DNA of 40,591 bases from NCBI GenBank assembly GCA_021833665.1, contig JAKBES010000007.1, forward strand, positions 1 through 40,591, in the 5' to 3' direction. The stretch's first letter is position 1, and each line of letters opens with the position of its first letter. The notes below the pieces were generated by a model that was given only the letters and a program-made list of their open reading frames with translations, did no database searches and was not told where the DNA came from. The translations under genes were made by a program, and so were the position numbers. Origin of the DNA: Acidobacteriota bacterium. Its GTDB lineage: Bacteria; Acidobacteriota; UBA4820; DSQY01. Below are positions 29,256 to 40,591 of the stretch, piece after piece.

Positions 29256-30329
29256 CTAACCGTTCTCCGAGGTGCCCGTATCCAGGAGGCCGTGATGGTT
29301 CACGAGGTCCGTGAGGCCCTGGATGTCCAACACGTGCCTGGCGACGCCGGCTTTGATGACCTCGCGGGGCATGCCGAAGATGACGGCCGATTCCTCCGAC
29401 TCGGCCGCCACGATGCCGCCCGCCGCCGCGATGGCCACGGCCCCCTCCTTGCCGTCGTCACCCATGCCCGTGAGGACGATGGCCAGGGACGCACTGCCGT
29501 ACACCTTGGCCACGCTTTGAAAAAGGTAATTTGCGGAGGGGGCGAAGCGGTCCTCCTTGAGCCGGTCACTCACCACGGCCCGCGGTCGGCCGTCGGCGGT
29601 GGCGATACGAAGTTGTTTGCCCCCGGGAGCGATGTAGGCGTGTCGCGGGAACAAGGCTTCCCCGTCGGCGGCCTCCTTGACGACCCGGTGGGCGAGGGTG
29701 GAGAGGCGCTCCGCGAAGAGCCGGGTGAATACCGGGGGCATGTGCTGGCAGATGACGATGGGTGAGACGAGGGCGGGCGAAAGGCCCGTCAAAAGCTGCT
29801 GGATGGCCGGGGGGCCGCCCGTGGAGGCGGCGATGGCCACCACCTCGGCGGTGCGCTCGCCGTGAGCCCGGGGCAGGGCCACGGGAGTGGGGATAAGGGG
29901 CGCTTGGGCCACCCGTTGCCGGATGTGGTCGAACTTGAGCTGGGGGATGGAGAGGATCTTGGAGAGCAGTTCCTCCTCGATGAGCTTGAGCTGGGGAGAG
30001 GCGGTCCTGGACGGCTTCACGACGAAATCCACGGCGCCCAAGTCGAGGGCCTTGAAAACGGACCGGTTGGATTCGCGAGAGGAGACGACCAGGACGGGGA
30101 GCGGACGGTTGACCATGAGCCAGCGCAGGACCGCGAACCCATCCATTCTGGGCATTTCCAGATCCAGCGTAATGACGTCGGGGTTGAGCTGGAGGATCTT
30201 GCGGATGGCGTCTTCCCCGTCGAAAGCCGTCCCCACCACGTCAATGCGCTCCGAAGACCGGAGGATCTCGGAGATGACCTTGCGGTTGAAAGATGAGTCG
30301 TCCACCACGAGAACGCGTATCTTGCTCAT
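29256..30329 (-). CDS. cheB: chemotaxis response regulator protein-glutamate methylesterase
   Basis: RVLVVDDSSFNRKVISEIL...VITLDLEMPRMDGFAVLRWLM; CheB catalytic domain VVAIAASTGGPPAIQQLL, ICQHMPPVFTRLFAERL, VLTGMGDDGKEGAVAIAAAGG. Confidence 0.96.
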   Translation of the reverse strand: MSKIRVLVVDDSSFNRKVISEILRSSERIDVVGTAFDGEDAIRKILQLNPDVITLDLEMPRMDGFAVLRWLMVNRPLPVLVVSSRESNRSVFKALDLGAVDFVVKPSRTASPQLKLIEEELLSKILSIPQLKFDHIRQRVAQAPLIPTPVALPRAHGERTAEVVAIAASTGGPPAIQQLLTGLSPALVSPIVICQHMPPVFTRLFAERLSTLAHRVVKEAADGEALFPRHAYIAPGGKQLRIATADGRPRAVVSDRLKEDRFAPSANYLFQSVAKVYGSASLAIVLTGMGDDGKEGAVAIAAAGGIVAAESEESAVIFGMPREVIKAGVARHVLDIQGLTDLVNHHGLLDTGTSENG

Positions 30330-31183
30330 GGCCCCTCCTTGACGTAAACGAGGTCGCCCGGAAGGTGGATGAGTTTGAAGGTGTCCGTGACGGAGATGAG
30401 GCTTTCGGAGTGGCCCAGAAGCAGGTAGCCCGGGGCTCTGAGCTTCTCGTGGAACTTTTCCATGACCTTGACTTTGGCTTCCATGTCAAAATAGATGATC
30501 ACGTTGCGGCAGAAAATGACATCGAACGCCGGCAGGAGGCCGTACCTGCCTGGGTCGAAGAGGTTGAATCTCGAAAAGTTCACGCATTTTTGGATGGAGG
30601 GGGCGACGCGGAAGCGCCCAGGTTCTTCCTCCGTGAACCAGCGTGCTTTGAAGGCTTCGTCCACGGCCCGGAAGGAGCTCTCCGTGTAGAGGCCCGACTT
30701 GGCCTTCGCCAGGACTCGCGAGTTGATGTCCGTGGCGTAGATCTCCAGGGCCCCTTCGGGATAGCGGCCCGTTTCCCTTGCCAGGATGGCGATGCTGTAA
30801 GGCTCCTCCCCGCTGGAACAGCCCGCGCTCCAGACCCGTATCCTGCTTCGCCCGCTCCGTTCCCAGAGGGCGGGGAGGATGTCGTTCTGGAAGCACCGAA
30901 GCTGCTTGATCTCCCTCATGAAGTAGGTCTCGTTGGTGGTGATGACCGTCACGAGGTGATCCCATTCCTGGGTCCTGTCCGGGTCGTATCGGATGTAGTT
31001 CAAGTAATCCCTGGGGCTCACGCCTCCGAGGGCCGACATGCGCGATTCCAGCCTCCGCTCCAGGAAAAACTGGGAGCCCGGCCCGAAGGAGAGGCCCGTC
31101 TCGTCATGAATCAGGACACAGAAGCGCCTGTAGAGATCGTCGTCCAGCAGGGGCCTCTGGGGCCCATCGTTGATGTTCCACAT
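30326..31183 (-). CDS. cheR: chemotaxis protein methyltransferase
   Basis: VITTNETYFMREIKQLRCFQNDILPAL; RVWSAGCSSGEEPYSIAIL; DINSRVLAKAKSGLYTESSFR; VIFCRNVIIYFD. Overlaps cheB start. Confidence 0.96.
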   Translation of the reverse strand: MWNINDGPQRPLLDDDLYRRFCVLIHDETGLSFGPGSQFFLERRLESRMSALGGVSPRDYLNYIRYDPDRTQEWDHLVTVITTNETYFMREIKQLRCFQNDILPALWERSGRSRIRVWSAGCSSGEEPYSIAILARETGRYPEGALEIYATDINSRVLAKAKSGLYTESSFRAVDEAFKARWFTEEEPGRFRVAPSIQKCVNFSRFNLFDPGRYGLLPAFDVIFCRNVIIYFDMEAKVKVMEKFHEKLRAPGYLLLGHSESLISVTDTFKLIHLPGDLVYVKEGP

Positions 31184-31192
31184 GGCCGAACT

Positions 31193-33403
31193 TTAAAGAT
31201 TCTCCAGGTGCTTGAGGATTTCGATAAGGATGAGCTTGGTCTGGAAGTCCACCGATTGAGCCTCGTTCTCGATGAGGCGGGCGTGTTCCCTTCCCAGAGA
31301 CGTGAAAAAGGCAAAGGTGGCGTCCTTCAGGGCCGGGTCCGTCAGATAGTTGAGCATGCGCGGTACGGCTTCGATGGCCTTGAGGGCGATGAGCGCGTGG
31401 ATGACGGTCTGGCGCACGAGGGTGTCCTGGTCCCGTTCGAGCTCTTTCAGGAGGATCGGGATAAACCGGCGGTCCTGGGAGGCTCCCATGAGCTCGATGG
31501 CCGTGGATCGGATCTCCCATCGGTGTTCCTGCACGGCGTCCGTGAGGGCCTTCACGGCATCGGGGCGCCCCGATTTGGCCAGAGCCCCCAGGGCCGCCTG
31601 GCGGACCTCAAGCGGGCTGGAGGCTTGGGTGGCGAGGGCGAGGACCGCCTTGAAGAGGCTTCCGCAGCCCACCTCGGCGAGGCCCCGGAGGGAGCCGAGC
31701 CGGACGGGCAGCTCGTCCTCCTCGAGGGCTTTGAGCAGGGACCGGCTGATGGACGGATCGGTGCTCTGGGAAAGGAAGAAGGCCGTCTCCGCCCGGACCC
31801 AGACGTCGGGGTCCGAGAGCGACGTGATGAGGATTTCCGGTTGGCGCGCCAGCAGCTCGCGCCCCAGGGCCGAAATGACGGCCCGGCGAACCCGGGCAGC
31901 CGTGTCTCCCAGCATGGGCAAAAGGTCCTGGAAGGTGCGGGCGCCCCCTCCCTGGGCGATGATCCGCACCACGGCCTGCCGGACCACGGGTGACGGGTCC
32001 TGGAGTCCGGGGACGAGCAGGGCCGCGTCGCCGTTTCGGCCCTCCGCCAGGAGGGCGTAGGCCGCGCAGCGCACCGTCTCTTCATCGTCGGAGACCATGG
32101 TCTCTCCCGAGATGGCGAGCCGGGCCCGGTGCTCGGGATGTTTCCGGGCGAGGTTGCGCGCGGCCCTCAGGGCCACGTCGTGGAACGTCATGTCGGGCTC
32201 TCGCAGGACGCCCACGAGTTTCTGGAGGCAGCGGGGATCGTCCACCTCCCCCAGCGCGGCGATGGCTTCCATCCGGATCTGGACGTCGTCTTCGTACGAC
32301 TGGTTCAGAAGAGGCACCACGGCGTCGGGGCCGCCGGCGGCGGCGAGGAGGCGGATAAGGAGGAGGCGCTGGTCCTGGGCCGGCGAAGCGTTGAGGCGCG
32401 CGATGAGGGTGCGTGCTGCCGCCCGGCCGAAGGCCAGAGCCGCGTTGAAGGCGTCTCGCTGGAGGTAGGGGCTCGCCAGCTCGGCGAGGACCTTGTCGAG
32501 CAGCGATAGGTCCGCCAGGGCCCCGGCTACCAGAATCATGCCGCGGCGCTCGGTCACTTTAGCTTCTCCCCAAGCCGTTTCGAGGCGGGACAGGACCTCC
32601 ATGGGGAAGTGAAGCTGGATCTGACGCGCCACTTCCCGGTGATGGCGGGGCAACAGGGCTTCGGGGATGTTGGCGTTGTAGATCTGTCCCAGGGCCTCCA
32701 TCACGGCGAGGAGGGGCGAACCGGGGTCGGCGGCCCGCTGGAGGAGGAAGGAGACGGTATGAAGATCGCCCATCCTCCCGAAGGACTTGAGGACGGCCCT
32801 GCGGTACTTGGGATGCTCGTACAGCTCGATGAGCTTGGACGTGGCGGCGGGACCGCCGATGCCGCTGAGGGCTTCGATGAGATGGAACCAGACCCAATCG
32901 TCCTGGCGTTGGAAAAGGTCGACGAGAACGGGCAGGTTGCCCGCGTCCTTCAGGCGCCCGAGGCTGGTGATGGCCGCGGAGACGACGTTGATGTTGTCGT
33001 GGCTCAGGTAGTAGATGAGGTGAGGGGCGGAATTTCGGCTCGGCACCTCGCCCAACAAGGAAATGAGAGCGAGTTTTACGTCCGTGTCTTCCTCCACCAG
33101 GTGGTCGTAGACGTGGGGAAGAACCGAAGGGCCCGCCTTGACGAGAGATTCGTAGGCCGAATTGCGCTTGCCTGCGTTTTCGGGGTCATAGAGCGCCTGG
33201 ATGAGGGTCGGCATGACGGCCTCGGTGGGAAGGGCCAGGACCGTCTCCACGGCTGCCTTCCGGACCCGCCAGTTGGGGTCACCCAGGAGGGTGTCCAGCC
33301 ACGGGAGGGCCGTCGCCGCCGTCTCGTCCGCCAGGGCGATGGCGGCCCTTCGGCGCGTCTCCACGTCCGGAGAGGCGATCTCTCGGGCGAACTCCGTGTT
33401 CAT
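31193..33403 (-). CDS. HEAT-repeat protein
   Basis: 736 aa of repeating helical pairs (e.g. NWRVRKAAVETVLALPTEAVMPTLIQALYDPENAGKR; ARVRRAVISALGRELLARQPEILITSLSDPDVWVRAETAFFL). Confidence 0.88.
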   Translation of the reverse strand: MNTEFAREIASPDVETRRRAAIALADETAATALPWLDTLLGDPNWRVRKAAVETVLALPTEAVMPTLIQALYDPENAGKRNSAYESLVKAGPSVLPHVYDHLVEEDTDVKLALISLLGEVPSRNSAPHLIYYLSHDNINVVSAAITSLGRLKDAGNLPVLVDLFQRQDDWVWFHLIEALSGIGGPAATSKLIELYEHPKYRRAVLKSFGRMGDLHTVSFLLQRAADPGSPLLAVMEALGQIYNANIPEALLPRHHREVARQIQLHFPMEVLSRLETAWGEAKVTERRGMILVAGALADLSLLDKVLAELASPYLQRDAFNAALAFGRAAARTLIARLNASPAQDQRLLLIRLLAAAGGPDAVVPLLNQSYEDDVQIRMEAIAALGEVDDPRCLQKLVGVLREPDMTFHDVALRAARNLARKHPEHRARLAISGETMVSDDEETVRCAAYALLAEGRNGDAALLVPGLQDPSPVVRQAVVRIIAQGGGARTFQDLLPMLGDTAARVRRAVISALGRELLARQPEILITSLSDPDVWVRAETAFFLSQSTDPSISRSLLKALEEDELPVRLGSLRGLAEVGCGSLFKAVLALATQASSPLEVRQAALGALAKSGRPDAVKALTDAVQEHRWEIRSTAIELMGASQDRRFIPILLKELERDQDTLVRQTVIHALIALKAIEAVPRMLNYLTDPALKDATFAFFTSLGREHARLIENEAQSVDFQTKLILIEILKHLENL

Positions 33404-34170
33404 GCTTCCCCCTCTTGAGCGATCTGAAGGTAGCGCACGACCACGTCCCGCAGGTGGTCACCGGCGCCCTGTTTTCGGGTCTCGATGTAACGCCGTCCCT
33501 CAGCCACCTCGTCCCTGAAGAGCTGAAAGAAGTCTTCGGGTGTTTTCACCTGGGCCATGCGCCGCGGATCGTAGACCAGCAGATCGGCGAAGACGCTTCT
33601 CGCCAGTCTCGTGGCTTCCTCGTCGGAGCCCTCGGGGGTGGATGCGGATGGCGCAAGCTGCAAATGGAACTCGATTTTCCGCAGGACCGCTTCGTCCGAA
33701 CCCCCTTCGTCCAGGTAGTCGTCGGCTCCGTAGAGGGACTGGGGCCGCCGTCTGTATCGCTTCCGATTGTGGATGGCTCCCAGGAGGATGATGGTGGGAG
33801 GCGCCGCCTCTTCGGCCCTGAGCCGGGCGATGAGATCCGTCCCCATGAGCCCGGGAAGGTACGGATTCACAAGCAGGAGACGGGGCTTTTTGGACCGGAC
33901 CTCCGCCAGCGCCGTGAGGCCGTCTTCCGTGACCACCAGGTTGAGGCCCAGGCGGTGGAGCAGCTCCACCAAGCTGTTGCGGAAGTCCCGCTGGATGTCG
34001 GCCACGACGGCCGTGGCACGCCCGTGGGCTCCCGCCAGCTCATGGCTCGGCTCCACGGAGGGCGACACGAGGAACTCGGTGCTGCAACTTCGGCACCGGA
34101 TTCTGAGGAGCCTGGCCTGACTCTCGTTGAGGCGGTATCGCTTGAGGCAATTCGGACACTGGACAAACAT
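33400..34170 (-). CDS. zinc-ribbon (MJ0042-like) + degenerate receiver domain protein
   Basis: MFVQCPNCLKRYRLNESQARLLRIRCRSCSTEF (CxxC...CxxC) followed by a receiver-like fold ATAVVADIQRDFRNSLVELLHRLGLNLVVTEDGLTALAEV...LLLVNPYLPGLMGTDLIARL. Overlaps the HEAT gene start. Confidence 0.78.
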   Translation of the reverse strand: MFVQCPNCLKRYRLNESQARLLRIRCRSCSTEFLVSPSVEPSHELAGAHGRATAVVADIQRDFRNSLVELLHRLGLNLVVTEDGLTALAEVRSKKPRLLLVNPYLPGLMGTDLIARLRAEEAAPPTIILLGAIHNRKRYRRRPQSLYGADDYLDEGGSDEAVLRKIEFHLQLAPSASTPEGSDEEATRLARSVFADLLVYDPRRMAQVKTPEDFFQLFRDEVAEGRRYIETRKQGAGDHLRDVVVRYLQIAQEGEA

Positions 34171-34187
34171 GGCGGCGGCTCCCCGGG

Positions 34188-34855
34188 TCAGACGTCGAAC
34201 GCAAGGAACATGGGCAGATTGAGGAAGCCAACGGCTCGCCCCTTGTGGTGAAAGACACCCTCCACGAAGTCCTGGACCACGGGCTTGAACCCCTCGGGCA
34301 CCGGTTCCAGCGCGGCCACGTTCACCTCCACCACCTGGTCGATCTGGTCCACGAGAAGTCCGATGTGGTCTGCGCCCAAATCCAGCACGATCACCTTGGG
34401 TGCCTCCGGTTTGGAGGAGATCAAGCCCAGTCTGGACGCCACGTTGATGATGGAGACGATCCGCCCCCGGAGGGAGAAGATGCCGGACAGAAAGGGCGGT
34501 GCGTTGGGGACGAACGTGGCGGGCGGCATGTCGATGATCTGGGCGATGTCGTGGATGGGGATGGCGTATTTCTCGCCGTCCAGATCAAAGATGAGGAGGC
34601 GCTCTCCTGCGGCCGCGGGCTCGGCGGGAGCTGCCGTGTCCTCCTTTGCGGGCTGGGCCGTCGGGAGGGCGATGGCCGGCGATTCGGAGTCGGCCGCAGG
34701 CTCTGGCAGAACATCCAGGTCCGCCGCCTGGGCCGCCGGTGCCGATGGTTCCGCCTCCGGCGGCGGTCCCGCGGCCCTTGTTCCTCCCGGCGCGCCGCCC
34801 CGAGCTTTTTTTCGGATCTTCGCCAAGTCCACGTTCAGCTCCCATCTAAAGCCCA
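34188..34855 (-). CDS. cheW: CheW-domain protein
   Basis: RLLIFDLDGEKYAIPIHDIAQIIDMPPATFVPNAPPFLSGIFSLRGRIVSIINVASRLGL...VIVLDLGADHIGLLVDQIDQVVEV. Start taken at MGFRWELNVDLAK; long A/P-rich linker before the CheW domain. Confidence 0.9.
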
Positions 34856-34954
34856 TTATAAGGGACCCGAGGGGCCTCCGCAACGCGGAGAACCAGCCGA
34901 GCACGAAGGTCGGCCGTGGGGAGGCGCCGCCGGCCCCGGGGAGGCGGACGCCCC

Positions 34955-35497
34955 TCAAAGGGACTCGGAGCCGAATTCGCGTTCCAGCGTCTGCCGGGCC
35001 AGGGATGCATGGCGCCGCACGGTCACCTCCCGGAGGCCCGTGAGGCGGGCGATTTCACCGTCCTCTACTCCGAGAACGTCGCGCAGGAGGAACACGAGAC
35101 GCTGGGCCGGGGGCAGTTTCGCCGCCCAGAGGTATAGGGTCCGGATCTCGTACGGGTGTCCTTGGACCGAAAGCTGGGGAGTGCCCTCGGGAAGGTGGTC
35201 CAGCGAAACATGGATGCGGTCATTGCGCTTCAAGAAGCTGTAGGTGCGCCGCACCGCGATGGTTTTCAAGAAAGGGAAGGGATCCTGTCCGGGGATCAGC
35301 CGCCGGAGAGCCTGAAAGAACCTGAAAAACGTCTCTTGGAGGATGTCCTCCGCGTCGTGGGCGTGAGGCACCATCTGGTATACGAGGCGGAAGAGGGGCC
35401 CATAATAAGCCTTCACCAGACAGGCGAAGGCCTCCTCGTCGCCGTCTCTCGCTTCCCGGAGCCACTGTTCAACCGCGACAAGGTCCTGCACCGGCAC
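34955..35497 (-). CDS. RNA polymerase sigma-70 family ECF-type sigma factor
   Basis: DEEAFACLVKAYYGPLFRLVYQMVPHAHDAEDILQETFFRFFQAL (region 2) and LPPAQRLVFLLRDVLGVEDGEIARLTGLREVTVRRHASLARQTLE (region 4). GTG start. Confidence 0.92.
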   Translation of the reverse strand: MPVQDLVAVEQWLREARDGDEEAFACLVKAYYGPLFRLVYQMVPHAHDAEDILQETFFRFFQALRRLIPGQDPFPFLKTIAVRRTYSFLKRNDRIHVSLDHLPEGTPQLSVQGHPYEIRTLYLWAAKLPPAQRLVFLLRDVLGVEDGEIARLTGLREVTVRRHASLARQTLEREFGSESL

Positions 35498-35577: not shown

Positions 35578-38500
35578 TTACGGGCCCTGGCGCCACTGGT
35601 TGCCTTTGCGGTTGTAGCTCACCGTCGTCTCGCCTCCGTCGCCGTTCACCAGGCGCACGGGCACGAAGACGCCCGCGGGGAAGAGCGCCTTGAGGCCCGA
35701 GCCCTTGAGGACGACCTTCGTTTCCGGGACGATCTTGACCGTGGCCCACTGCTGGCCGCCCACGTAGACGGCCACGTCGTCGTGCAAGCCCGACCCCGTG
35801 ATGATGAGGCGGAAGGGGCTCGCGGCCTTCTGCACGCCCGTGACGTGGGGGGGGACGGCCACCACGATAGTGCCGCTTTTCATGCAGGAGGCCGATTCGG
35901 CCGAGGCGGTGAAGGTCCAGGTGTAGGTGCCGGATGAGACATAGACATGGGTGGGGGCCAGGATGCTCCCATGAGGGCTCCCGTCTCCGAAGTCCCAGTC
36001 GTAGGCCAAGCTGCCAGCACAGCTCGTGCTGGTGGCCGAAGCCTGAAAGGGCACGGAAGCCCCTGGGGAGCCCGAGGCGGGCGCCTGGGCCTGGCACAGC
36101 ACGGTGCAGATGCCAGGTTCGGGCACGGCGGTGGCCGCGCGGCTCGGCGGGCCTTCGAAGCCGCCCGTGTCCAGGCTCGTGGCGTAGTATGTGTATTCCA
36201 CGCCATTCACGAGGCCGCCATCGTTATATCCACGGTCCGAGGGCCCTGGACTCTCCACCGCCGCCCAAGTCTTGCCTCCGTCGCCGGACCTATAAATTTC
36301 AAATCTCGAGACGGGAGCCGCCGGAGAGCCCCAGGACAGAACCACGGCTCCGTCCGCGGCCGCGGCGGCGAAGGCCGGTGGAGGATCGGGGGCGGGCAAG
36401 CGGAGCGAGATGGAGGGATCGCCCATGAGGATGTTGCCCAAGACCGACCGGGCATCGGAGGAGGGCAGAGAGAAGCGCCCCGCATCCACCAGTGGCCCCA
36501 CCGGTCTAGTTTTGGACGGGCCGAAGGCCTGCTCGAAGAAGGCGTTGGCGAAGGTGTGTTCCTCGTCGGGGTAGGCGATAGTGGAGAACCCGCAGGACCC
36601 GATGGTACCCCGGTCCGCCCTGGCCAATAGAACTTCCATGAGGGCGTCGGTGCTCACCTCGTCGAAAGCCGAGTTATAGCAACTGCTGCTCACGACGAAG
36701 GGCAGGGGCGCTGAAGGGGCCGAGGGCGTGAGGTCTATGGGGGGGAGCAGATCCACGTCCGAATCGCTGCACGTACCGCTGGTGCAATTCCGGGAGGGGT
36801 ACGAGGTGAAGAAGGCGTACTGGTTTCCCAGACTGGTGATGGCACTGTGCCCGCTGTAGTGCATGAGAGCGGCGCCCGGCCATGCCGCCCGCAAGGCGGA
36901 GGCGAAGGCGTTGGCGTCGGTGCCGTTGTAAGGAGCGTCGTGGAAAAAGAGGTGGGTGCCGCTCCATGGCGGTGCCATGTAGGTGGTTTGCAGGAGGGTG
37001 TTGGCTTGTTCGAAGACCTGCTCCCAGGTTTGGGTCCACGTGTCGGCCACGAAGAGGCCGCTCTTGTACCAAGTGCCGGTCAGGGCCTGATCCTCATAGG
37101 CCATGATCTTGGTGAGCATGCCCGCCAGTTCCTGATAGGACCGTGCTGGGAGGCGCCCCACCGCCGAATCGGGATAGCCGTCCCCGTTCACGTCGGCGAA
37201 CCAGGCATCGGAAGGGTAGCGGCCCATGTAGGTGGAATCCCCCGCGTCTTCAAACATCATGGTAGGGACCCGGTTGGTGTTGCCGGGCGTCCCCGTGTAG
37301 TTTTTGTAGTCATAGGATGCGTCCCCCACGAGGAGGACGTACTTGGGAGCCCGGCCCCATGCTGCCGCGGCGGCGGCCAGGTAGCTCCGAATCGCCGTGG
37401 GGTCCATGAGGCCGTAGGAATAGGCGTTAAAGATGCTTTCCACATCCACCGCTACTACCGTCATGGCCTCCGACCGCCTCGCCAGGTATGCTTGCCACAC
37501 GGCATCTGCTCCCGCTGGATGAAAGTCGGGATGGGTGATGATGACCATGTCCGCGGGGTTGGCGGGGTCGGGAATCGCGGGCGCGGCAGCCACATAAGCG
37601 GCGCTCGGCAGGAGCGGCGCGCTGGATAGGGCCACGAGGCGCCGCGTCACGCTAGGATTTGCAGGCATTTCGAAGGTGGCCGTGCCCGCGGAGAATGTGG
37701 CTCCCGTGAGCAGGATGGGGCGTTTGAGCCCCGTCGCCGGGTCCGAGGCGGAGAGATCGAGAATGTAAGGTGCCGTTCCGTGCCCCGGGCATGCGTACTG
37801 GGCGGAAGCCTCAACATCCGTGATGAGGAGAGTGCCTGAGTCCGAATCCAAGGTCCTCGAATAGGTGAAATCGAAGTAGTCCAGAAGCTGGAAATCGGGC
37901 TGTCCACCGGCCCCCGGTAACGTCAAGGTGACGGTGTTGGTTCCGCTTGCCAAGCCCGAGCTGAAGCTGCACGTCTGGGCCGAGAGGGCTTTGCCCTGCC
38001 AGGGACCGGGGTCGGGTGCCGCGCTGGACGGGACACCGTTGAGTGCCAAGGTGATTTCGTGCTGGCCGTCGTTGAGGCCCGCCAGGATTGCAGTGGCCGA
38101 GAGGCCCTCTCCGTAAGGGTGGGGCAGGTTCACCGTGAAATCTCGGGAGGTGCTTGACCCCGCGGGCGCGGCCAGAATGGGGGCCCAGAACCAGTTGTCC
38201 CCGTTGGGCCTGAAGTGGTCCAGCGAGTCCAGGTAGGTGTTCACCTCCAGGTGAACCGAGGCCGTGAACTGAGCGGCCGAAGGGAATCGGCCCGTGGGCG
38301 CCGCGGGGGCGGTGGCCATTCGGAGCCCCCGCAGGCCGTCGGAGTAAAGCCAGTACACGTTCGTGTCCGAGAAGTCGCCGCCGTCGAACATGGGCCGGTT
38401 CGTGATGGCGAGCTTTTGGCCGTAGAAGACCACGGCGCTGGACGGGGAAAGGGGTCCCGAGGATGGGCCCTCGATCCAGATGGGAATCTCCACCCCCCTG

Positions 38501-39222
38501 CACGTGAGGTGGATGGTCTCCACCTGGGTTCCGGGGCTTAGCCCGTGGGAGGTGAGATAGGTGTAATCCAACCGGTAAATGCCGTCCTGCACGACGTCCA
38601 CCCGCACGGGGCTCGCGCTCGGAGGAAAGGTGGACGCCCCAGAGGGCGAACTCTCGCGGCTCATCTCGGAGGCGTGCCGAAAGGCCAGAGCTCCCGTGGG
38701 GTTGAGAAAGAGGCTGGCGCTGGCCCACGGGCTGATCCCGGAGGGCAGGGGAGGGTCGAGGGAGGCGGCCAAGCCAGGCACTTCAAGCGTTCCTTCGAGG
38801 GCAGACAGAACTTGCACTCCCCCGGAGGGACTCCGCCGGACCGGATGCACGATGATTTCCTGGTAGGGGACTCCGTGCCACACGCCGCGTTGGCCGAGAA
38901 CCGCGGCCTCGCACGTGCCGGGGACCCAGTCGCCGGGCGGGGCCACGCGCCAGTAGGCGCTCGCCACGCGGAGGGATGCTTCCTGGGCCTTGGCCGGCAG
39001 GGCGACTTTAAGAGATACGACGGGAGTACTGGGCGGGAAGCCTTTTGGGGAGGGTACGGACCAGAAAACCAGTTGCTCCGGTGAAGGGGACCACGTGAAA
39101 TGAAAAACCGGCCGCCCCCCGGAGGAGGCGTCAGAGGGAGAAGTTAGAATAACGAAGGCCACCAACCCGGCGACGAAATGCCAACAGGGACGGCGGCGAT
39201 TAGATCTCTGCGTTCTTACCAC
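35578..39222 (-). CDS. secreted C25 (gingipain-like) cysteine protease with FnIII, PKD and TIG-like C-terminal domains
   Basis: Signal-peptide-like PCWHFVAGLVAFVILTSPSDASS; C25 core KYVLLVGDASYDYKNYTGTPGNTNRVPTMMFEDAGDSTYMGRYPSDAWFADVNGDGYPDSAVGRLPARS; catalytic-type His (LMHYSGHSA) and Cys (PFVVSSSCYNSAFDE); FnIII (VSRFEIYRSGDGGKTWAAV...YYATSLDTGG); PKD (LAYDWDFGDGSPHGS...HVYVSSGTYTWTFTA). GTG start at 39222 chosen because the upstream part of the track ORF (to 39273) overlaps the peptide gene; start uncertain. Confidence 0.85.
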   Translation of the reverse strand: MVRTQRSNRRRPCWHFVAGLVAFVILTSPSDASSGGRPVFHFTWSPSPEQLVFWSVPSPKGFPPSTPVVSLKVALPAKAQEASLRVASAYWRVAPPGDWVPGTCEAAVLGQRGVWHGVPYQEIIVHPVRRSPSGGVQVLSALEGTLEVPGLAASLDPPLPSGISPWASASLFLNPTGALAFRHASEMSRESSPSGASTFPPSASPVRVDVVQDGIYRLDYTYLTSHGLSPGTQVETIHLTCRGVEIPIWIEGPSSGPLSPSSAVVFYGQKLAITNRPMFDGGDFSDTNVYWLYSDGLRGLRMATAPAAPTGRFPSAAQFTASVHLEVNTYLDSLDHFRPNGDNWFWAPILAAPAGSSTSRDFTVNLPHPYGEGLSATAILAGLNDGQHEITLALNGVPSSAAPDPGPWQGKALSAQTCSFSSGLASGTNTVTLTLPGAGGQPDFQLLDYFDFTYSRTLDSDSGTLLITDVEASAQYACPGHGTAPYILDLSASDPATGLKRPILLTGATFSAGTATFEMPANPSVTRRLVALSSAPLLPSAAYVAAAPAIPDPANPADMVIITHPDFHPAGADAVWQAYLARRSEAMTVVAVDVESIFNAYSYGLMDPTAIRSYLAAAAAAWGRAPKYVLLVGDASYDYKNYTGTPGNTNRVPTMMFEDAGDSTYMGRYPSDAWFADVNGDGYPDSAVGRLPARSYQELAGMLTKIMAYEDQALTGTWYKSGLFVADTWTQTWEQVFEQANTLLQTTYMAPPWSGTHLFFHDAPYNGTDANAFASALRAAWPGAALMHYSGHSAITSLGNQYAFFTSYPSRNCTSGTCSDSDVDLLPPIDLTPSAPSAPLPFVVSSSCYNSAFDEVSTDALMEVLLARADRGTIGSCGFSTIAYPDEEHTFANAFFEQAFGPSKTRPVGPLVDAGRFSLPSSDARSVLGNILMGDPSISLRLPAPDPPPAFAAAAADGAVVLSWGSPAAPVSRFEIYRSGDGGKTWAAVESPGPSDRGYNDGGLVNGVEYTYYATSLDTGGFEGPPSRAATAVPEPGICTVLCQAQAPASGSPGASVPFQASATSTSCAGSLAYDWDFGDGSPHGSILAPTHVYVSSGTYTWTFTASAESASCMKSGTIVVAVPPHVTGVQKAASPFRLIITGSGLHDDVAVYVGGQQWATVKIVPETKVVLKGSGLKALFPAGVFVPVRLVNGDGGETTVSYNRKGNQWRQGP

Positions 39223-39248: not shown

Positions 39249-39371
39249 CTAGCTCACAAAGGGGGCACTGCAAGCCGGGTTGCCGGTGCCATCCTTGCTG
39301 CTACACGCATTGGCTCTGGCCTCGATCCGTTCTTTGTAGATCACCGCAGGTTTCTCGTAGGGCTTTTTCAT
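39249..39371 (-). CDS. 40-aa RiPP precursor-like peptide (not in the supplied ORF track)
   Basis: Reverse-strand read ATG 39371 to TAG 39249: MKKPYEKPAVIYKERIEARANACSSKDGTGNPACSAPFVS. RBS GGAGAGGTGGCAGA-ATG; lies directly after a radical SAM/SPASM gene on the same strand; leader-like N-terminus, Cys-containing C-terminus. Confidence 0.75.
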   Translation of the reverse strand: MKKPYEKPAVIYKERIEARANACSSKDGTGNPACSAPFVS

Positions 39372-39399
39372 TCTGCCACCTCTCCTTCATCCCAAAGGC

Positions 39400-39428
39400 A
39401 AATTGCAGTATTTCCTGCCGCCTGTCAA
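39400..39428 (-). promoter_or_regulatory. sigma70-like promoter for the small peptide gene
   Basis: Minus strand TTGACA - 17 bp - CAATTT (consensus -35, weak -10), about 30 bp upstream of the ATG. Confidence 0.5.
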
Positions 39429-39490
39429 GTCCCCTTTCCTATTGGCCTCACCGCCCAAGCCCCTAGGTAAGGAACGGAACCGTCCGGCGG

Positions 39491-40558
39491 TCATGTCTCC
39501 GCCAGATTGGAGCGGATTTTCGCCACCCTCACATACTGTTCGTCGGGGCGGAGGGGATCCCCGCACTTCAACTGGGACAGGCCGGGGCAATGGGCGCAGA
39601 AGGCGTGCTCCTTCACGGTGTCCTTGAGCATGGCCGCGCTCTTGAGGTTAGCCTCCCGAGCCGCCATCAGGAGGGGCGAAGTGGCCCAGATCTCCTGAAG
39701 GGTTTTCTCCCGAATGCTGCCCACGGACTGTTTCCACTGGACGCAAGGGTGAATCTCTCCAAAGGGGGTGATGTGGAGGGTTCCCGTGCCCACGCTGCAA
39801 TTAAAATCGCCGGGCTCCCGCTCAAAAGGCGAGTTGCCCAGATTCAAACCCGAGGTTTTGTAGAGCCAGGCGATGGCCTCGTCCGAGGCCCGCAGCTCCA
39901 TGGGATAAAGTTGCCGGTCGTCCGAGATCGTGAGGACCGGGTCGAAGTAAAGGGGAAACCCGAAGCCGTCGGCCATCGCCTTAATGTCGGCCAGTTCGTT
40001 CTCCACCAGGCGTGTCACGGTGCACTTGAGAAAAACCCGGAGGCCCGACCTTTGAAGGAGAGAGAGCGCGTTCATCTGGCGCCGGAAGGACCCTTTCACC
40101 TGGGGGAGGGCCTCGGCGGTCTCGGCCTTGGCCCCGTGGATGGACATCTCCAGGCAGAAGGGCATGAGGGTCGCGAGCCGGTCCACCACGCTTTGAGTGA
40201 GAGCCGCGCCGTTGGTGTAAATACGAACGGCGAAAGCGCGATCCTTGGCAGCCTTGGCGATATCCCAGAACCGGGGATGCATGAGCGGCTCACCACCCGT
40301 GAGGGTGAGGTAAAGGACGCCCATATCTTTCAATTGGTCCAGGACGCCCACGATCTCCTCGAAGGTCAAAGGAGACTCGGCTCTCTCCGGGGCCGGCTGA
40401 GTCCGGTTCTGATTCTTGCGCTGGACGGGGTTGTAGCAGAAGTAGCAGGCCAGGTTGCAGGTGTCCGTGAGTTCAATCGACGCAAAGAGAGGGTGGCGCA
40501 CCCTGAAGGCGCTTTCGTATAACCGCTGCAGGTGCGTTCCCCGCTCAGTCTGCGCCAT
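39491..40558 (-). CDS. radical SAM protein with SPASM-type C-terminus (candidate peptide maturase)
   Basis: SIELTDTCNLACYFCYN (CX3CX2C), LYLTLTGGEPLMHPRFWDI, C-terminal Cys set CSVGTGTLHITPFGEIHPCVQW...FCAHCPGLSQLKCGDPL. ATG at 40558 (MAQTERGTH) preceded by AGGAG; the track start is 40579. Confidence 0.9.
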   Translation of the reverse strand: MAQTERGTHLQRLYESAFRVRHPLFASIELTDTCNLACYFCYNPVQRKNQNRTQPAPERAESPLTFEEIVGVLDQLKDMGVLYLTLTGGEPLMHPRFWDIAKAAKDRAFAVRIYTNGAALTQSVVDRLATLMPFCLEMSIHGAKAETAEALPQVKGSFRRQMNALSLLQRSGLRVFLKCTVTRLVENELADIKAMADGFGFPLYFDPVLTISDDRQLYPMELRASDEAIAWLYKTSGLNLGNSPFEREPGDFNCSVGTGTLHITPFGEIHPCVQWKQSVGSIREKTLQEIWATSPLLMAAREANLKSAAMLKDTVKEHAFCAHCPGLSQLKCGDPLRPDEQYVRVAKIRSNLAET

Positions 40559-40591
40559 CGGCCAGAGCTCCTGAATCACGCAGCGCCTGCA
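40545..40591 (-). CDS. 3' end of an upstream gene overlapping the radical SAM start (truncated by window)
   Basis: Open frame from the window edge to TGA at 40545: ...QALRDSGALADGAD*, overlapping the radical SAM start by 14 bp, as expected for a coupled upstream gene. Confidence 0.4.
   Translation of the reverse strand, partial: QALRDSGALADGAD

Follow-up and report, generated by a model that had tools for sequence, protein, structure and literature searches.

A candidate RiPP cassette of an Acidobacteriota bacterium joins a two-cysteine peptide to a radical SAM enzyme, an RRE protein, an HPrK-like kinase and a C25 protease

Does a 40-codon reading frame next to a radical SAM (rSAM) gene encode the precursor of a modified peptide, and what would the modification be? 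The pair lies at 39249-40591 of contig JAKBES010000007.1 from an Acidobacteriota bacterium (GCA_021833665.1), whose positions 1-40,591 constitute the window, the whole 40,591-nucleotide stretch analysed here. A first-pass annotation proposed a RiPP locus made of the precursor and its rSAM maturase. The proposal is supported by peptide-rSAM pairs in many genomes and by conservation at the codon level. Its extent was right for these two genes and otherwise too narrow, leaving out a Peptidase_C25 (C25) gene downstream (~39222 to 35578) and kinase and PqqD genes upstream. The features of the window are as follows.

35578..39222, minus strand: large secreted Peptidase_C25 protein with a PKD domain (PF01364, E 1.3e-62; catalytic residues; start candidates)
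39249..39371, minus strand, stop included: precursor peptide gene, 40 aa (cross-phylum homologs, purifying selection on codons, conserved RBS)
39252..39305, minus strand: putative core, residues 23-40, with C23, K26, C34 and the C-terminal S40 (Cys, K/R and Ser counts over distinct members)
39306..39371, minus strand: putative leader, residues 1-22, with YxxP and ExxE motifs (Y5, P8, E14, E17 and A20 invariant or nearly so)
39372..39395, minus strand: RBS region, AAGGAGAGGTGGCAGA, 5' of the ATG (read from the sequence; identical bases in the sister species)
39491..40579, minus strand: putative rSAM/Twitch (SPASM-like) maturase, 362 aa (PF04055, PF13186; SkfB as best match; CxxxCxxC with C261, C279 and C331)

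The peptide frame, 39371-39249 on the minus strand, translates exactly as annotated, to MKKPYEKPAVIYKERIEARANACSSKDGTGNPACSAPFVS; its start lies 119 bp beyond the stop of the rSAM gene at 39491. The good ribosome-binding site ascribed to it is there: AAGGAG lies about 10 nt 5' of the ATG and is kept in the sister species (L113). The promoter proposed with it, TTGACA-N17-CAATTT, fared worse, as CAATTT matches TATAAT at only 2 of 6 positions and a promoter scan returned no sigma-70-like site. Compared with the sister species, leader codons 4-23 have a pS of 0.61 and a pN of 0.10; the cores differ in length by multiples of three nucleotides, and the RBS keeps its sequence amid drifting flanks. 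Judged by these comparisons, the codons of the peptide are under purifying selection and the frame is a real gene, more than a product of chance.

Used alone as a query, the peptide is found in all same-family genomes tested except one (G007), and its profile alone detects relatives at E<=0.05 in 75 of 396 Acidobacteriota genomes. An rSAM scan of named genomes retrieved records from Acidobacteriota, Myxococcota, Gammaproteobacteria and Deltaproteobacteria. Homologous peptides beside related rSAM genes elsewhere, a check set beforehand, were indeed found in many genomes: the same rSAM has them as neighbours in the window's family, Acidobacteriota at large, Myxococcota, Gammaproteobacteria and Deltaproteobacteria MAGs. 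The linkage appears in two mutually independent search directions. Among the 48 strongest loci fetched by rSAM, 33 contain an ORF that the peptide profile matches, and an rSAM gene lies within ~1.5 kb in 17 of the 28 loci fetched by the peptide alone. A short conserved precursor near an rSAM gene is what an rSAM-dependent RiPP is expected to have. Searches of Pfam and NCBIfam with 28 peptide members gave zero significant matches, and a PLSDB search for the cassette on plasmids was also without a match. The locus of Thiocapsa marina (L157), inspected as that of a cultured host, showed no recognisable peptide.

Alignment of 72 distinct members gives the family motif Y/W-x-x-P-x-[ILV]-x3-E-x-[LIV]-E-x2-A-x2-C-x(1-9)-K-x(4-5)-C-x2-G-P-[ILV]-x-S. 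Two cysteines are present in 71 of the 72; a Lys or Arg lies between both in 69 of these 71, with 4 or 5 residues separating it from the second Cys in 59. The last residue is Ser in 69 members and Thr in two of the three exceptions (Ser/Thr in 71/72). The division into leader and core proposed earlier fits this conservation, with a YxxP...E.ΦE leader followed by the two-Cys core; the R/K preceding the core is not conserved beyond the window's group. We rejected a lipobox at the first Cys for want of a hydrophobic stretch. The two-Cys core was part of the first-pass account, which missed the RRE protein, the HPrK-like kinase, the C25 partner, the near-invariant C-terminal Ser and the inter-Cys K/R.

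By comparison of gene neighbourhoods, the conserved unit is a set of five genes, encoding an HPrK-like kinase, a PqqD/RRE protein, a SkfB-like Twitch rSAM enzyme, the peptide and a secreted Peptidase_C25. A congener (G002) has all five side by side, as HPrK, PqqD, rSAM, peptide and C25. The kinase and PqqD genes are not seen in the window because the contig end cuts the cassette. On another contig of the same genome, C194, the same rSAM start lies at the end and is immediately preceded by an HPrK-like gene and a PqqD-like frame; from this shared rSAM start and the arrangement in the congener, we infer that the two contigs join. The set recurs in other phyla in varying order. All five genes occur in 32 of 73 loci, many of the others being cut by contig ends; the 73-locus totals are descriptive only, since the loci are partly redundant and were partly collected by rSAM. 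No dedicated exporter was found in the cassette.

These elements suggest the following scheme. The PqqD-like RRE protein would bind the leader at YxxPxΦ...E.ΦE, by analogy with lasso peptides, and present the peptide to the rSAM/Twitch enzyme. This enzyme would cross-link the two-Cys core by radical chemistry, a Cys thioether being the likeliest product. Phosphorylation of the near-invariant C-terminal Ser would fall to the HPrK/PEPCK-fold kinase. Finally, the secreted C25 cysteine protease would remove the leader or trim the product outside the cytoplasm; alternatively, it may be a functional partner. The position of the cross-link, the order of the steps and the route of export are likewise predictions, drawn from gene content, precursor conservation, fold assignments and intact catalytic residues. 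We hold the scheme as a whole to be rather likely, and the peptide is probably cross-linked, phosphorylated at its last residue and paired with the secreted protease.

The first and third steps lean on relatives from lasso peptide clusters. The PqqD-like protein of a homologous cassette matches PF05402 at E 5.9e-12, and among solved structures the lasso RREs TfuB1 and TbiB1 come closest to it, with weak E-values (0.002 to 0.06). Lasso leaders carry YxxPxL (PMC10368454). The leader-recognition protein expected beside an rSAM-modified precursor is therefore present, in the window's genome on contig C194. The kinase is modelled with a PEPCK/HPrK fold (mean pLDDT 93) and has an invariant His, a P-loop and an Asp pair, spaced as in the lasso kinase BsfK (PMC10368454); as far as model and alignment can tell, these are the features of a lasso-type Ser kinase. 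That the C-terminal Ser is the phosphorylation site is inferred from lasso clusters, whose HPrK homologs act on this residue with little other specificity (PMC8498205), and the terminal Ser/Thr of 71 of the 72 peptides is consistent with it. BsfK itself, a kinase of the lasso type, modifies Ser3 and not the terminus (PMC10368454). The kinase gene is absent near some peptide loci, yet it is encoded in 14 of the 14 peptide genomes tested. Assignment to the HPr-rel-A system was rejected, the kinase scoring below the HprK_rel_A cut-off (35.8 vs 200 bits).

The C25 protein likely starts at GTG 39222, with a hydrophobic, signal-like N-terminus. It scores 212.7 bits with PF01364, for a gathering score of 23, and possesses the catalytic His and Cys, which are found in 56/56 and 55/56 family members, respectively. 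Its protease domain is closest to PorU among solved structures. Of the 49 cases in which a locus has both genes, 48 show C25 and the peptide on one strand. Nearly every genome of the window's family has a single C25, that of the cassette; the window's genome has a second, partial match besides. G007 lacks the peptide, a close rSAM ortholog, the kinase and an above-cut-off C25 all together, which is supportive but no proof because that genome is 86% complete.

It is possible, if unlikely, that regulation of its own C25 is the dedicated role of the modified peptide: the two-Cys loop with its conserved Lys would inhibit or activate the protease in the manner of a substrate, and each peptide would be matched to its C25. 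Such a role, which may overlap with the RiPP scheme, would agree with the adjacency and shared strand of the two genes, the lone C25 of the family and its joint absence in G007, and with the three loci where two peptides accompany two C25 genes. The inter-Cys K/R would also suit it, gingipains (family C25) being known to prefer Arg or Lys. Against it, two other loci have two peptides for one C25, and the incompleteness of G007 weakens the joint absence. A RiPP that receives both a radical cross-link from the rSAM/Twitch enzyme and a phosphate on its C-terminal Ser from the lasso-type kinase, and then serves as dedicated ligand or regulator of the co-encoded secreted C25, is a more specific proposal that we put forward quite tentatively and would not expect to hold in all its parts.

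The thioether predicted in the RiPP scheme would be the work of the rSAM enzyme. Its frame runs to the contig end, with a start at GTG 40579 or at a later ATG. The CNLACYFC motif noted earlier is borne out (PF04055, E 2.7e-22). The SPASM-like Cys set holds for the region as such, which matches PF13186 at E 1.2e-8 and has the C261-C279 spacing of SPASM, C-x12-G-x4-C; the auxiliary cysteines conserved in the family number only three, as in Twitch. In the alignment, from which one sequence holding a stop (L158) was left out, the conserved cysteines are C41, C45 and C48 and otherwise only C261, C279 and C331. This set fits one Twitch-type auxiliary cluster, and SkfB, a sactisynthase, likewise has three visible ligands (PMC6231123). 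SkfB is also the best solved match, both by profile and by fold (model mean pLDDT 86). Scores against curated NCBIfam maturase models are all below cut-off (SkfB 59.9 vs 300, AlbA 57.5 vs 850, StsB 88.3 vs 625 bits), and membership in the named sactipeptide maturases was rejected on this ground. Two conserved cysteines and a SkfB-like enzyme point, indirectly, to a thioether of the sactipeptide or ranthipeptide type. Related folds among the structural matches, PqqE and EpeE included, also carry out epimerisation or C-C linkage. The enzyme might hence produce a small redox cofactor, an epimerisation or a C-C bond, in the manner of PQQ, mycofactocin or EpeE, with the cysteines forming a disulfide only. 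The PqqD-like partner and the lack of a detected exporter would fit this as well. We find it doubtful nonetheless: cysteines near-fixed in 71 of 72 peptides indicate sulfur as the site of chemistry, and the best match remains SkfB.

How does the cassette compare with known systems? With SkfB/SkfA it shares an rSAM enzyme with one Twitch-type auxiliary site and a Cys-containing core. It differs in that its precursor is unrelated by the models tested and its RRE is a separate PqqD-like protein, whereas that of SkfB is fused N-terminally (PMC6231123). With kinase-bearing lasso clusters (paeninodin, BsfK) the likeness extends to the YxxP leader, the discrete RRE and the C-terminal Ser, to the catalytic residues of the HPrK-type kinases and their spacing, and to NTP_transf_5 in some distant loci. 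Unlike those clusters, the cassette has an rSAM and a C25 protease and is without the PF13471 (lasso B2) leader peptidase, for which a search found no match in the window's genome. Lasso membership was rejected on that absence. A lasso cluster with protease and cyclase lost or moved, to which the leader, the lasso-like RRE and the kinase might otherwise point, is very improbable: PF13471 is also missing from 16 of 18 other genomes tested, the rSAM stands in its place, and a survey of recurring neighbours showed no Asn-synthetase-like cyclase. That the peptide ORF is a chance or untranslated frame, for all its shortness, its weak promoter and the absence of a Pfam or NCBIfam model covering it, is barely credible in view of its conservation across phyla, the selection on its codons, the conserved RBS and its linkage to rSAM in both search directions.

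SynChlorMet (Scm, NCBIfam) also combines an HPrK-like protein with a SPASM rSAM in a peptide cassette; identity with it was rejected on scores (ScmC 27.3 vs 125, ScmE 63 vs 400, ScmF 73.4 vs 400 bits), and no peptide model matches. The C25 protein resembles gingipains and PorU in PF01364 and its conserved His and Cys. The rSAM RiPPs, RREs and peptide kinases are each known singly, and to our knowledge skf has no kinase or C25 partner. None of the curated models tested matches the combination, the precursor family or the C25 partner. In the open-access literature searched, we found no report of C25 as partner of an rSAM peptide cassette and no description of the five-gene set; an earlier account elsewhere is possible. 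The cassette is a candidate for a new RiPP class once its product is seen. It defines a cross-phylum precursor family that lies outside Pfam and NCBIfam models, suggests a combination of radical SAM chemistry with leader recognition and C-terminal Ser kinases of the lasso type, and offers a first handle on the tie of C25 to rSAM peptide cassettes in environmental bacteria. Given the motif and the five-gene context, co-expression and mass spectrometry could put the idea to a direct test.

Several variations were observed around the cassette. Two loci from the same order as the window's genome (L069, L070) have an expanded form, in which three HPrK-like genes and two rSAM genes stand in series. 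An NTP_transf_5 nucleotidyltransferase or an S24-like peptidase is added in some distant loci (L136:10208-11107, L160:9992-10495); the S24-like peptidase recurs in 18 loci, and the NTP_transf_5 type is also found in kinase-bearing lasso clusters. A distance of ~10 kb separates the peptide from C25 and rSAM in one family (L072:5202-5360, L195, L197), with large secreted proteins between them in L071/L072.

Residue 39 of the rSAM enzyme (window 40463-40465) is Asp, against a near-invariant Tyr in the family (ELTYxCN). Tyr is also what the overlapping end of contig C194 encodes, and the Asp is probably a contig-end error or strain variation. After C25, on the same strand, the window continues with a chemosensory-type operon (29256-35497, minus strand) encoding an ECF sigma factor, CheW, a response regulator with a zinc ribbon, a HEAT-repeat protein, CheR and CheB. 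The order of sigma factor, CheW-like protein and regulator occurs again beside C25 in L069, which belongs to a different family of the same order.
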